32,494 nucleotides of DNA from Deltaproteobacteria bacterium (GTDB lineage: Bacteria; Desulfobacterota; Desulfobaccia; Desulfobaccales; 0-14-0-80-60-11), in contig JACQYN010000066.1 in the NCBI GenBank assembly GCA_016208235.1, positions 1-32,494 on the forward strand. Direction: 5' to 3'. The translations under genes and the position numbers were made by a program. Positions 26,215-32,220 of this stretch are shown piece after piece. Positions within the stretch are counted from its first letter, which is position 1. The number at the start of each line of letters is the position of its first letter. The notes below the pieces were generated by a model that searched no databases, had not been told where the DNA came from, and worked only from the letters and a program-made list of their open reading frames with translations.

Positions 26215-28215
26215 TTACTTACTTTCCAGCACATATACTCCCTGCCAGTCCGGCGGCGGCGGTTGCTGCTGGAAATGGAGGCAGCGCCCCAGGAACACCA
26301 CCGCGGCTTGATCATCCGGTTTCAGGCGCAGCACCGTCTGGAAATGGCCCAGGGCCTCCTGCCAGTCCTGCCGCTTATAAGCTTCCCGGCCGGCCGCAAA
26401 AATTTCCAGCCATTCGGGCCTGCCGCCACCGTGGCGCCGGCCCAGCAACTCATAGATGGTCACCGGTTGCTCCCGGCCTTTTACCTGAATCAGATCCACT
26501 TCCCGCACCAGCATGACCTCCTCCACCAGGCGGCAGGTAGAGTCGCTGAGCAAAATGGTGGTTCCATAGACTTTATTAGCCCCTTCCAGACGGGAGGCCA
26601 GATTCACCGTATCGCCGATGGCGGTATAGTTAAATAATTCCAGGGAGCCGATGTTGCCGGCAATCACCGGGCCGGAATGGAACCCCAGGCGGGCCCTGAG
26701 CGGCGGCAATCCCTGGGATAGCCACTCCCGCTGCAACTCCTCCATGCCGGCCTGCATCTCCAGGGCTGCTGCGCAAGCGTGCAGGGCATGATCGCTAAAA
26801 TGCACCGGCGCTCCCCACAGGGCCATTAGCGCGTCACCGATATACTTATCCATGGTGCCCCGGTGTTCCAGGATGATCCGGGTCATGGGGGTAAAATATT
26901 CGTTCAACACCTGGACCAGATCATGGGGGGGTATTCCTTCGGACAGAGAGGTAAACCCCTCCAGATCCGCGAAGAGAACGGTGACCTCCACCTCCTCCCC
27001 GCCCAACTCCAGGCGTTCGGGGTGGGCAATGATGGCCTCCACCAGGGCCGGGGAGATGTAACGCTTGAATGCCTGGCGCAGCCAGCGCTTTTCTTGGGCC
27101 TCGATTAGGTATTGGCTTAATACATTGCCGCCGTAAATCAGAGCCAGCCCACCGCAGATAAGAATCGGGGGCGCCCAATAATTCAGGTAAATAAACAGAC
27201 CCAAGGAAATCCCCAGCACCGCCAGGACTGAACCCGCCAGCACCGCCAGGCCCACCGGAGGAGAAAGCCGGACCAGGAGAAGGCTGAATTGTAGAAAGAC
27301 GGCCAGATACAAAAAAATCCTGGCCAGGCGCGGCAGTTCCCGCCCCCAACTACCCCGGAGGAGGGTGTGCATGACCTGGCCCTGGATTTCCACCCCGGCC
27401 ATGCGTAAGTTATCCCTGGCAAAGTAAGGGGTTAAAAAGGAATCGGCCTGGTCCTGGGGGGTAACCGAGGCCTCGAGCATGCGGCCCACCAGGACTATGC
27501 GGCCCCGAATTCGGGTGGCGGGGAGAGGATGCTGCTCATCCAGGACTTGGTAATAGGAAACGGTGTCAATACTTCGCTGCGGCCCGGTATAATCGATCAG
27601 CCCGGAAAGATCGGGCGGCAAGGCCATCTGGGGCCGGAAGTTTTTCACCGCCACCGCCGGTAGAGTCTCCTGGCCAAAGAGGCGGAGCCGAAAGTGGCGC
27701 ACCACCCCATCCGCGTCCGGGGTGATCATTGCCAGCCCCACCCCTCTGGCAGCCCGGCGAAAGGCCGCCAGCGGCTGCACCAGGATCTGCCGGGAAAAAC
27801 TGGGGTCCTGGGTGACGGACACGGTCTGGCCCAGGATGACATTACCCGCCTGGTCCAGGGACGCGGCGAAAAGCTGGTCATCTTCCGGGGTGGAGGAGTC
27901 GGCAAAAATGACGTCAAAGATAATCAGAGAGGCCCCGGCCGCGGCCAGGCGACGGATTAACTCGGCATGGAGGCGCCGGGGCCAGGGCCAGGGCCGGCGC
28001 AATTCCTGGAAGGAAGCCTCGTCGATGCCGACTATGAGCAACTCCGGCGGCGGGGGTTGGACGGAGCGCAGGCGGTAACCCAGATCTAGCCCCAGGTTTT
28101 CCAAGGCCTGTCCCAGGTTGGACAGGCTCAGGGGAGCCAGCAGGAGAAAGGTGAGCAGACCCACCAGTAGCCCCCGGCCCCGGGCCCCTTGCAGAAATTT
28201 AAAAATAGAGGGCAA
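26215..28215 (-). CDS. CHASE2 sensor - class IIIb adenylate cyclase - TPR protein
   Basis: A 666-residue inner-membrane cyclase. One N-terminal helix (~13-33), a periplasmic CHASE2 domain (~40-285), and three helices (~300-365) precede the class III cyclase domain (~405-590). Metal Asp417 (LFADLEGFTSLSE) and Asp461 (DKYIGDALMALWGAP) are present; Lys457 and Thr531 sit at the purine-recognition sites, the Lys/Thr pair of class IIIb, bicarbonate-responsive adenylate cyclases. Asn538 and Arg542 (GDTVNLASR) complete the site. A short TPR-like tail (~595-645) ends it. It starts at TTG 28215 inside the end of the FecR-barrel gene (17-bp overlap), with GGAGG about 13 bases upstream, so the two are translationally linked. 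Likely product is cAMP. Confidence 0.92.
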   Translation of the reverse strand: MPSIFKFLQGARGRGLLVGLLTFLLLAPLSLSNLGQALENLGLDLGYRLRSVQPPPPELLIVGIDEASFQELRRPWPWPRRLHAELIRRLAAAGASLIIFDVIFADSSTPEDDQLFAASLDQAGNVILGQTVSVTQDPSFSRQILVQPLAAFRRAARGVGLAMITPDADGVVRHFRLRLFGQETLPAVAVKNFRPQMALPPDLSGLIDYTGPQRSIDTVSYYQVLDEQHPLPATRIRGRIVLVGRMLEASVTPQDQADSFLTPYFARDNLRMAGVEIQGQVMHTLLRGSWGRELPRLARIFLYLAVFLQFSLLLVRLSPPVGLAVLAGSVLAVLGISLGLFIYLNYWAPPILICGGLALIYGGNVLSQYLIEAQEKRWLRQAFKRYISPALVEAIIAHPERLELGGEEVEVTVLFADLEGFTSLSEGIPPHDLVQVLNEYFTPMTRIILEHRGTMDKYIGDALMALWGAPVHFSDHALHACAAALEMQAGMEELQREWLSQGLPPLRARLGFHSGPVIAGNIGSLELFNYTAIGDTVNLASRLEGANKVYGTTILLSDSTCRLVEEVMLVREVDLIQVKGREQPVTIYELLGRRHGGGRPEWLEIFAAGREAYKRQDWQEALGHFQTVLRLKPDDQAAVVFLGRCLHFQQQPPPPDWQGVYVLESK

Positions 28216-31200
28216 ATTTGAACATTATCCTCCGCACCGGGAAAAAGGCGTCAAAGGTGACAAATTCTCTCTGGAAAAAGAAATGCCGGTTAAAGATATT
28301 GGACACTTCCAGTTGGGCCAGGCCCCGCTTTTGGGGGAATTCATAGCCGATGCGGGCATCCACCAGGCCGAAGAAGTTATCGTCACGATCCTTCAGGTGC
28401 TGGTCCACCAGGTAGGCGTTGATCCCGCCCTGCCAGCCGCTGCGGTGCAGAAAAGCCAATCCCAGTAACCCGAAGTATTCATTGAAATCCTGGGCCAGGG
28501 GTAGCAGGATGGGATTGGGATCAGGGACGAATCTCTTGGCGGACCCCCCCAACGTCAGACCCAAATAAGGGGTAAGGATGCGGTTCACAGTGAAGGAGGC
28601 CAGATATCTCTTCCAGGTCCACCAGACCCGGTTTTCCGCCAGGGTTTGATCGACTTCATACTGGGGGACCGAGAAGCGGTGGTGATTCAGGCGCAGAGTC
28701 GAAAAGGTCTTGGAGTTCCATTGGGCTTCCCAGGCAAAACCGGCTTCTCTGACGATGGCCCCGTCATCCACGTTGATGGCCCAGGGAAAGCTGGCAACTT
28801 CCACCGGGATCAGGGAGTTTGGCTGGATTAGATTATGGGTACTGAGGTGCTGCTGCAGGGCCAAACGCAACGTATGCTGAGAATTGATCTGGTAATTGAC
28901 GCCAAAGCGGGGGCTCCAGAGGGAGGTGGACAAGGGCGCGCCATAACCGACGCGGGAGTTTTTGCTATAATCCTTGAACACCCCCAACTCCAGCAACAGA
29001 TTGGGGAACAGGCGCCAGTAATCCAAGAGATAAAAAGAATAAGAGCGATCGGGCGGCTTAAAATCGTTGTTAATTTCCGCGGTCAAGAGGGGGATGCCTA
29101 GAAAGGAAAACAGCAGCATTTCATTGGTGCGGTACTTTAGATGGCCGGAGAGATAATCGAAACCGCCGATAAAGGTGTGATCCCCCAGGATAAGCTGCTT
29201 TTGCAATTGCACATTGAGCAGCTCCCGGTCGGCCCGGCGTTGGAACTGATCATCCAGGGTAATGGGGAACCCGAAGAAATCAAAGGTGGAAATGGTCCGG
29301 TTGAAGGAATGGTTTTCCGTGGGCATATAAGTAAAATAAGCCAGAAAGGTGGACGCGGGACTAAAGCGATGGGCATAACCCACCTCGTATTGCCGGGAGT
29401 GGAAAAATTGGCGAAACGAGGGGAGGTTCTGGTAACCGTAATCATTCAAGTTGCTGGTATCCCCGGCCTCCCGGTCCGCATAGGAAAACCCGGCGAACAG
29501 AGAGTCTTTCACTGTCGGCTCCCATTTGGCAAAACCTATGGGGATATAGGTGGTACTGTCGCCATTGCGAACACGGAAACCCCGATCATCCTGGTAACTC
29601 CCGAAGACGTCGAAAGCCAGCCCGGGCAGCCCGCCATACAGCTCCACGGAATGTTCCTGGATCGCCTTCCCCCCGCCCCAGGTGCCGATGCCCCCCTGGG
29701 CTTGCAGCCGGATATAGGGCATCTCGAACATGGGTGTATAGTCGTTGAATACGGTGAAGGTGTTCTGGTTGGCCGGGGACAGCAGGCGGTAAAGCAGTAA
29801 GGACGAGCCCGCGGAACCCAGCCGCTGCCGGGTGGCGGCAAAGGCGTTGGCCAAAAATAGTTGGGCGGAGCTATTGGTGGGATCGTTTTTTACCGCGGTC
29901 ACCGCCTTGCTGTAGGCCCAATCCCCCAGCCCCAACTGCGCAAAGGACCGGGCCAGATTGTAGTTGCGCACCGCCAGGTCCCGGTCCAACATGATCCGGG
30001 AACGGAATATGGCGTTATTGTCGTTTAAGGCGATGGAGCGGTTGATCTCCTCAATGGCTTCTCCCGGCCGGTTGAGGTCGGTGAGAGCAATACCCTTATA
30101 GAGGTAAGGGCTGGGGTCTTTGGGATCCAGGGTCTTGGCATAGTCATAGACCTCCAGGGCCATGTCAAAGGATCGCACCTGGTAGAGAGCCTTGCCCAAC
30201 GAGGTCTGATACAGGGATACCCGGGGGTCCAACAGAGTAGCGGTTAGCATCGAGGCCAGGCCCTGGTCGAAATCCCGGTGCCGGAAATGGTAGATTCCCA
30301 GCCCCAAATGGGGTTCTCCCAGCGCCGGATGGTTGCGCACCGCCCGGGAAAACAACAAAAAGGCCTGGGAATAATCCCGGTAACCCAGACGGATGAAACC
30401 GGCCAGGGTCAGGACTTCCCCGTCCTGGGGAGCCAGCCTGAGAGCGGCCCCAATGGTCTTCCAGGCCCGGTCCAGGTAATCGGAACCCAGCCAGATCTTC
30501 GCCAAATATACATAGGCGTCCACGAAGCGGGGATCCAAACTGAGGGCCTTTTCCAGATGCTGCTTGGCCGCGGGCAGGTCAAAGTAGGAAATGTTCACCA
30601 GGCCCATGGTGAGTTGGGCCACCGGGGATGCGGGGTTCTGGGCCAGGGCCTGGGCCGCGGCGTTCCGGGCCGCGGCTTTGCGATTTTGCACCAGGTAGAT
30701 CTGGCTCAGGAGGGCCCGGGGCAGGGCCATGGCGGGCGCCTGCTGGACCGCCGCCTCCAGCAGGGAGCGGGCTTCTTCCACTCTGCCCGCCAGGAGGTAG
30801 AAATAACCGGTCATGGTGGCCAAAAGAGGTGTGGGCTTGAGTTTTGCCCGGGCAGCCTGCATCAGTGCGTAAGCCCCGGTCACGTCTCCCAAACGGTAAC
30901 GAGCCAGGGCCAACCCGATAACGGCCCGGTCATCCGCCTGGCGCACCCGCCGGAAGTATCCCTCAGCTTTATCCAAGGCATGGGTTTGGAGACAGATCCA
31001 CCCTAATAGGGTCAGGGCCTGGTCATTTTGCGGCTCTAACTTCAGAGCGGCTTCGGCCTCTTGCTGGGCCTGCTCCAAGCGTCCCTGGTCGTACAGGCTC
31101 TCCCCCTGGACCACAGCCACAGCGGCGGCTGAGGGTCCCGGCGGCCTGGGCCTCTCTCCGGACGCGGATAGAGGCAAGTCCCGGTAACTGATGATGCCGG

Positions 31201-31876
31201 GATAATAGAGGGACCACTGCACCGCGTCCGCGGGCTGCACCAACACCCGCTTGGCGGGGGCTTGTCCAGGGCGGGCGAGGCCTTCTTCCCCGGGCTTCAG
31301 AAGTAGCTCCCCCAGGGAATTAAAGAGGCGTAGGCTGCCTTCCAGGAGGACCAGGCTGGTGGCGCCGTCCGCGGCCACCCGCAGGTTGAACTCGGTGCCG
31401 CGAATAGCCGCGGTGACCGCCGGGGTTTCCACGTCAAATAGAAATTTTTCGTTCTTATTGCGCAGCCAAATCTCACCCTGGGGCACTTCATAAAGACTGG
31501 GAGCCGCCTCTTTCAGGGCTGCCGGGGCCACCTCTCCCAGACGTAGACGGGGAGAGGGGGTCGCGCTTTTCAAGGTTATCAGGGTATTTTCATTGAGCTT
31601 GAGCTGGCTTTCATCCACGCAGAGGATCGCAGCCCGGGAAATCGCCCCCGTTTTTACCGTATCCCCGGCGAAGAGGTCCTGGTTAATCTGCGCGGGTGTC
31701 CAATCTTTTAACCCCCCCCGGCTTACCTCCACCTGTCCCTGAAAATAGACCAACTTCCCGGCCAGGGGAGGAGGGGTAGCGCCCACAGGCCCGGTCAGTC
31801 CTTCACAGCAGATAACTAAAAGGATAAAGAATAGAAATTTGGCGCCAGCTTTTAGGTGTCTGAGCTTAGGAATCAT
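28199..31876 (-). CDS. FecR domain - TPR array - outer-membrane beta-barrel protein
   Basis: A 1225-residue exported protein. Signal peptide ~1-33 (FLFFILLVICC... to VGA). A FecR-type domain (~45-175) includes GDTVKTGAISRAAIL and TPAVTAAIRGTEFNLRVAAD. A long TPR array (~250-720) follows, about a dozen helical repeats. The C-terminal ~500 residues are beta-rich with alternating aromatics and a terminal Phe (FALYF), as in outer-membrane barrels; parts resemble TonB-dependent-receptor strands (VSNIFNRHFFFQREF) but no plug domain is visible. ATG 31876 has AGGA 7-8 bases upstream. It is the first gene of a unit with the CHASE2 cyclase. The fusion suggests a periplasmic recognition/assembly scaffold tethered to the outer membrane; the role is not known to me. 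Confidence 0.85.
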   Translation of the reverse strand: MIPKLRHLKAGAKFLFFILLVICCEGLTGPVGATPPPLAGKLVYFQGQVEVSRGGLKDWTPAQINQDLFAGDTVKTGAISRAAILCVDESQLKLNENTLITLKSATPSPRLRLGEVAPAALKEAAPSLYEVPQGEIWLRNKNEKFLFDVETPAVTAAIRGTEFNLRVAADGATSLVLLEGSLRLFNSLGELLLKPGEEGLARPGQAPAKRVLVQPADAVQWSLYYPGIISYRDLPLSASGERPRPPGPSAAAVAVVQGESLYDQGRLEQAQQEAEAALKLEPQNDQALTLLGWICLQTHALDKAEGYFRRVRQADDRAVIGLALARYRLGDVTGAYALMQAARAKLKPTPLLATMTGYFYLLAGRVEEARSLLEAAVQQAPAMALPRALLSQIYLVQNRKAAARNAAAQALAQNPASPVAQLTMGLVNISYFDLPAAKQHLEKALSLDPRFVDAYVYLAKIWLGSDYLDRAWKTIGAALRLAPQDGEVLTLAGFIRLGYRDYSQAFLLFSRAVRNHPALGEPHLGLGIYHFRHRDFDQGLASMLTATLLDPRVSLYQTSLGKALYQVRSFDMALEVYDYAKTLDPKDPSPYLYKGIALTDLNRPGEAIEEINRSIALNDNNAIFRSRIMLDRDLAVRNYNLARSFAQLGLGDWAYSKAVTAVKNDPTNSSAQLFLANAFAATRQRLGSAGSSLLLYRLLSPANQNTFTVFNDYTPMFEMPYIRLQAQGGIGTWGGGKAIQEHSVELYGGLPGLAFDVFGSYQDDRGFRVRNGDSTTYIPIGFAKWEPTVKDSLFAGFSYADREAGDTSNLNDYGYQNLPSFRQFFHSRQYEVGYAHRFSPASTFLAYFTYMPTENHSFNRTISTFDFFGFPITLDDQFQRRADRELLNVQLQKQLILGDHTFIGGFDYLSGHLKYRTNEMLLFSFLGIPLLTAEINNDFKPPDRSYSFYLLDYWRLFPNLLLELGVFKDYSKNSRVGYGAPLSTSLWSPRFGVNYQINSQHTLRLALQQHLSTHNLIQPNSLIPVEVASFPWAINVDDGAIVREAGFAWEAQWNSKTFSTLRLNHHRFSVPQYEVDQTLAENRVWWTWKRYLASFTVNRILTPYLGLTLGGSAKRFVPDPNPILLPLAQDFNEYFGLLGLAFLHRSGWQGGINAYLVDQHLKDRDDNFFGLVDARIGYEFPQKRGLAQLEVSNIFNRHFFFQREFVTFDAFFPVRRIMFKFALYF

Positions 31877-31974: not shown

Positions 31975-32034
31975 TTATGCCTTTCTCCAAGTTTATCATG
32001 GCATGGTGGTAAAAGTTCTCCGGGTGCCCCCTAG

Positions 32035-32107
32035 GAGCCGGATGAGCCGAGAGGCTCATGTCCGGTTCTGGGAGGGCGTGGTAGTGTAACTCCCCCACGC
32101 TACTCGA
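32035..32107 (+). mobile_element. group II intron fossil: domains V and VI only
   Basis: 32035-32068 is a textbook 34-nt domain V: it starts GAGCCGGA and ends TCCGGTTC, has the catalytic AGC triad at positions 2-4, a distal TGAGCC/GGCTCA stem, a GAGA (GNRA) tetraloop and a two-base TG bulge on the 3' side. Domain VI follows, with GCGTGG (32076-32081) pairing CCACGC (32095-32100), and an end near CTACTCGAC (32107), compatible with an AY 3' splice site. No reverse transcriptase gene and no domains I-IV are upstream (only ~55 bases of unclear sequence before the A tract region), so this is a 5'-truncated remnant. Confidence 0.85.
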
Positions 32108-32220
32108 CTCCGCCATTCTCACCCATACCCATCTGCTACGATAAATCTGGCATATTTCTCTTGGTTCGCCATGTTAGCGGCGCTGGCCTTGAGTTCTTGG
32201 ATTGTTTACCAAAAAGGAAT

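Follow-up and report, generated by a model that had tools for sequence, protein, structure and literature searches.

Two overlapping genes of a Desulfobacca-like bacterium likely encode a transmembrane receptor-cyclase unit, in which a ligand from outside the cell would act through the TPR array and FecR domain of an outer-membrane protein on the CHASE2 sensor of an adenylate cyclase and, in this way, on cAMP. Both genes are located on the minus strand of the analyzed 32,494-nucleotide stretch of contig JACQYN010000066.1 (the window). Judged by homology and domain layout, the pair is an NsrA-CyaK-type unit, as its exported FecR-TPR-barrel protein is a homologue of NsrA and the overlapping gene encodes a CyaK homologue, a CHASE2 class III cyclase; this architecture is already known. 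The original prediction, based on the sequence alone, is supported in part: the envelope-to-cAMP pair, the barrel, and the conserved adjacency find support, while the supposed unusualness of the FecR-barrel fusion and a fixed stoichiometry of the two proteins do not.

The NsrA-type receptor gene (28199-31876) starts with ATG and encodes 1225 residues; it was characterized by ORF call, Pfam, AlphaFold2, Foldseek, and hhalign. ORF, hydropathy, Pfam, and structure model agree on the predicted layout of signal peptide, FecR domain, TPR array, and barrel. Residues 14-32 are hydrophobic, which fits the predicted signal peptide (approximately residues 1-33, 31778-31876, from hydropathy and sequence, cleavage site placed by eye), and hydropathy across the whole protein gave no second transmembrane segment. 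The FecR domain (residues 72-182, 31331-31663) scored over the Pfam cut-off (E 2e-10) and was also recovered by blind tblastn to NsrA. It is followed by a TPR superhelix of about 13 helix pairs (residues 250-699, 29780-31129), in which Pfam detected repeats from about residue 250 to about residue 640. Within the window protein, the C-terminal 500 residues gave no Pfam match. A group II intron domain V (32033-32108; Rfam RF00029, 58 bits) lies on the plus strand a short way upstream of the receptor gene and looks like an orphan relic, because the plus strand before it is taken by the opposite-strand receptor gene.

AlphaFold2, run on the mature receptor with an alignment with 65 relatives, gave a confident model (mean pLDDT 90.3, pTM 0.87), in which a beta-rich FecR domain precedes about 13 pairs of TPR helices and a barrel of 22 long strands, in line with the barrel that had been proposed for the C-terminus (residues 721-1225, 28202-29716). 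The best solved matches in Foldseek were TonB-dependent transporters, i.e., FptA (E 7.6e-16), FecA (2.2e-14), FoxA, and FhuE, and a sequence profile of the receptor barrel found FoxA and PqqU/YncD in the PDB. PF00593 was detected in 9 of 24 barrels of the receptor family, most members of which share a C-terminal aromatic residue; the window copy ends in ALYF. According to these results, the receptor C-terminus is a real outer-membrane barrel. Of the two hallmarks of TonB-dependent receptors, the 22-strand barrel is present and the N-terminal plug domain is missing: the Pfam scan of the receptor returned no plug, and in the AlphaFold2 model the TPRs run straight into the barrel. The fold is that of a TonB-receptor-like barrel in which the TPR array and FecR domain occupy the usual place of the plug.

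The second gene (26215-28215), identified by ORF call, Pfam, and catalytic residues, starts with TTG and encodes a CHASE2 adenylate cyclase of 666 amino acids. One transmembrane helix is followed by the CHASE2 sensor (residues 22-304, 27304-28152; Pfam 4e-44), which takes in the end of this first helix, by three further transmembrane helices (residues 296-315, 319-344, and 351-384; 27064-27330), and by the class III cyclase domain (residues 410-588, 26452-26988; Guanylate_cyc, 3e-26). The short TPR-like tail (residues 601-650, 26266-26415), also predicted, matched Pfam TPRs weakly (606-650) and precedes a conserved PPxxWxGV motif. The assignment to class IIIb follows from the presence of the metal-binding Asp residues D417 and D461, the purine pair Lys457/Thr531, as predicted, and the transition-state pair N538/R542. 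The product is probably cAMP rather than cGMP. Solved folds nearest to the cyclase include CyaB of Pseudomonas and CyaC of Spirulina, the latter studied with bicarbonate. The genome from which the window derives has four CRP-type cNMP-binding genes.

When plasmids were searched blindly with the receptor (tblastn), the search led to nsrA on pSymB of Sinorhizobium meliloti (34% identity over residues 2-220), which overlaps the cyaK gene immediately downstream of it by 1 bp. The Pfam domains of NsrA (FecR and TPRs) and CyaK (CHASE2 and cyclase) match those of the window pair. Homology extends over the main domains, with 26% identity between receptor and NsrA in the FecR/TPR part (residues 5-588, E 4e-30), an hhalign probability of 98.5% between the two barrels (E 3.5e-15, 395 columns), and 36% identity between window cyclase and CyaK over 557 amino acids (E 1e-86). 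According to published work, NsrA is an outer-membrane receptor needed for activation of CyaK by signal 1 in S. meliloti; signal 1 is described there as peptidic, with the ribosomal protein uL2 as candidate, and the NsrA loops as acidic (PMC7529298, PMC13001267). This precedent, with its like layout and a barrel protein needed to activate the cyclase, speaks for the proposed envelope-to-cAMP pair. NsrA, with 1200 residues, shares signal peptide, FecR domain, TPRs, and C-terminal barrel with the window receptor, and an overlapping CHASE2 class III cyclase gene downstream. In contrast to the window cyclase, CyaK has no TPR match and carries Ser at the position of Thr531. S. meliloti, an alfalfa symbiont, is also another organism in another habitat than the window bacterium, and therefore a plant or uL2 ligand cannot be assumed for the window receptor.

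Fusion of a FecR domain to an outer-membrane barrel had been regarded as unusual, which is contradicted by relatives at 217 loci, by NsrA itself, and by published FecR-outer-membrane/TPR/CHASE2-cyclase clusters of Campylobacterota (PMC9239204). In these clusters, FecR and TPRs are described as encoded by different genes, and a phosphodiesterase also belongs to them (PMC9239204). The BiofilmReg operon of Burkholderia contaminans likewise places a FecR-domain protein beside a CHASE2 sensor; however, its FecR is joined to LysM, without a barrel, and its CHASE2 feeds a histidine kinase (PMC5192318). In magnetotactic bacteria, mtxA encodes an exported protein (with TPRs in some) and is followed by a CHASE2 adenylate cyclase gene, but the cited part of that report mentions neither FecR nor a barrel for mtxA (PMC4439547). 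The FecA-FecR-FecI system and TonB-dependent receptors share the 22-strand barrel fold and the FecR domain with the window unit, which differs by having no plug or sigma factor, by the fusion of FecR to the barrel, and by a cyclase as output. The receptor was rejected as a FecR anti-sigma regulator based on its signal peptide, the lack of a second transmembrane segment, the cyclase partner, and the lack of a sigma-factor gene among the ten neighbouring genes scanned.

The receptor stop codon (TAA) and the cyclase start codon (TTG) overlap by 17 bp (28199-28215), as predicted. No other standard start codon ahead of the first transmembrane helix of the cyclase is plausible, and the TTG recurs at three other loci (L112, L123, L128), which is partly forced, since it lies within codons fixed by the conserved barrel C-terminus. 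In relatives, the partner genes are sometimes convergent, reversed in order, split by other genes, or unlinked, and fixed stoichiometry is therefore not essential. The claim that the overlap implies it is not supported, for this reason and because of the constraint of the conserved last receptor codons on the TTG start; at most, the translational overlap gives co-expression.

Most likely, a signal would pass through the unit as follows. The receptor barrel would reside in the outer membrane, where its outer loops would bind an extracellular ligand or let it in; this ligand is most likely a peptide or a protein. The resulting change would be carried along the TPR rod and the FecR domain through the periplasm and reach CHASE2 in the inner-membrane cyclase, possibly by direct contact between FecR and CHASE2. 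CHASE2 would then alter, upward or downward, the cAMP output of the cyclase, which may be read by the CRP-type proteins of the cell. Removal of CHASE2 from the cyclase CyaD1 results in constitutive cAMP production (PMC5498481).

The barrel also bears on two other explanations of the receptor. TPR-barrel exporters of the Slam/PgaA type have barrels of 14 to 16 strands. The 22-strand barrel of the receptor, matching TonB-dependent receptors, does not fit this class, and we rejected such an identity, but kept as a rival mechanism that the protein mainly exports, in the manner of Slam or PgaA, a secreted protein or modified peptide, with FecR and CHASE2 reporting export load to cAMP. The TPR-plus-barrel layout of known exporters and the undetected plug domain are in accordance with export, as are the receptors of relatives that adjoin secreted-looking repeat proteins (NHL at L101; FG-GAP at L139, L142, and L146; PKD at L104) or radical-SAM/PqqD-like units. 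However, the ten neighbouring window genes scanned include no such cargo gene, and the studied homologue NsrA is a receptor for an external signal; we thus consider export unlikely as the main function. Proximity of the barrel fold to FptA, FecA, and FoxA, together with the FecR domain, could instead indicate a TonB-dependent importer whose cAMP signal informs the cell of nutrient uptake, by analogy with FecA-FecR and ferric citrate. This is very unlikely given that the plug is absent, that FecR forms part of the barrel protein rather than of an inner-membrane anti-sigma factor, and that the ten scanned neighbours comprise neither a sigma-factor nor a TonB gene.

The proposed receptor-cyclase unit is further supported by its distribution. 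A genome scan revealed 217 loci encoding receptor relatives, the best 80 of which belong to Desulfobacterota, Gammaproteobacteria, Nitrosospira, and Brocadia, and to MAGs labelled Nitrospirae, Methylomirabilota, Acidobacteria, Poribacteria, and Chlamydiae. Where at least 2.5 kb are available on each side of the receptor (41 loci), a CHASE2 gene lies within 4 kb in 28 cases (29 with L129 of Solidesulfovibrio alcoholivorans, which the ORF filter missed), and the predicted conservation of adjacency was found across Desulfobacterota and beyond. The cyclase is mostly downstream of the receptor in the close clade; in the distant clade, a cyclase of about 750 amino acids is mostly upstream. In 59 related genomes, 13 receptor-CHASE2 pairs within 4 kb were seen versus 0.35 expected, i.e., approximately 37 times chance. 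Partner cyclases were told apart by score (at least 475 bits for intact or majority-length copies versus at most 344 for other CHASE2 cyclases) and were present in 17 of the 18 receptor genomes and in none of the 41 others, with one mismatch in the 59 genomes. Within the family, the counts were 9/0/0/13 (in the same order, 17/1/0/41 for all 59 genomes), and distances of the partners correlate in the close clade (r 0.92, n 15) and the distant clade (r 0.44, n 26), although both co-occurrence and distance correlation are confounded and inflated by common descent. The strongest part of this evidence is the pattern within the window's own genus, in which three genomes have both genes and four have neither. 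Chance adjacency of two functionally unrelated genes, to which the roughly half of relatives' receptor genes not beside a CHASE2 cyclase might point, is extremely improbable and was rejected on this linkage and on presence and absence in step even within one genus; moreover, S. meliloti has the same pair with a published function.

Receptor and cyclase need not be exclusive partners. Allowing one extra linked pair, 14 of 28 receptor-family members in the relatives are not beside a CHASE2 cyclase (some are at contig ends), and the receptor may thus serve other partners. Conversely, FecR genes outside the NsrA-like set also occur within 5 kb of CHASE2 genes above chance (11 versus 0.78 expected; G008, G016, G036, G041, G044, G045, G046, G052), which suggests that the FecR-CHASE2 partnership may be wider than barrel receptors. 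Cyclases of the distant clade (L144-L187) retain the metal-binding Asp and the Asn/Arg residues and have lost the Lys/Thr purine pair. Not every partner therefore need make cAMP, and their substrate or activity may differ.

Some receptor loci of relatives deviate in gene content. At L104 (5798-10992; genome G056), two proteins share the receptor domains, one with FecR and TPRs (413 aa) and one with the barrel (668 aa). Their genes follow that of the CHASE2 cyclase, GAF and HD-domain genes flank the arrangement, and the locus also encodes a PKD protein; this split is a natural test of whether the receptor parts can work apart. Two tandem NHL beta-propeller proteins are encoded between receptor and cyclase at L101 (3180-6787). 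At L139, L142, and L146, receptors that lack a cyclase neighbour are followed by giant FG-GAP repeat proteins, the longest of 3088 aa. At L135 (11052-11201), a second receptor C-terminus (ending in MFKLALYF) persists as a relic between receptor and cyclase, which suggests tandem duplication and decay.

One radical-SAM family is tied to NsrA-like receptors of a single tree branch: all eight members in the 59 relatives, one of them a fragment, adjoin a receptor-family gene (L125 4490-8796, L127, L117, L121, L133, L134, L094, and L128). These loci often contain PqqD/RRE-like, partly secreted proteins, as in G018 (L125) with the order receptor, PqqD-like, PqqD-like, radical SAM, and CHASE2 cyclase; at L127, in the window's own genus, radical SAM, receptor, and cyclase follow in succession. 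PqqD-like proteins match PF05402 (4e-7 at L135, over the cut-off), and inspection by eye showed that some of them have Sec or Tat signals and a similar short C-terminus, for example DVDLNQMGGGGYKIPPR. Among 395 genomes of the phylum, further strong relatives of the radical-SAM family were limited to two tandem copies (G347, L222), which lie in a RiPP-like cluster that has no NsrA-like gene; in this wider search, the window genome (G000) gave just a weak generic match (97 bits versus >540 for intact members). The window genome has no member of that family, so the radical-SAM link does not explain the window unit, and we rejected the idea that a radical-SAM unit belongs to the window system. For the branch concerned, the adjacency points to a secreted, modified peptide that would be its ligand or cargo. 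It is possible, if rather doubtful, that this receptor branch serves specifically to sense (or export) a self-made, radical-SAM-modified secreted peptide with the CHASE2 cyclase as read-out, and that the window copy has lost the peptide unit or listens elsewhere. The PqqD/RRE-like proteins can, in that reading, carry possible Sec/Tat signals and short C-terminal 'IPP'-type ends. Our literature search found no report of FecR together with radical SAM and PqqD, and the lead looks new. If true, it would represent peptide signalling via a TonB-receptor-like barrel to cAMP, and the radical-SAM/RRE link would give candidate ligands.

How signals cross two membranes to a cytoplasmic second-messenger enzyme is poorly understood, with NsrA-CyaK as the studied example. 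The whole receptor, barrel included, belongs to a widespread family that is gained or lost in step with the cyclase, and this makes the relay from FecR/TPR to CHASE2 testable in other bacteria.
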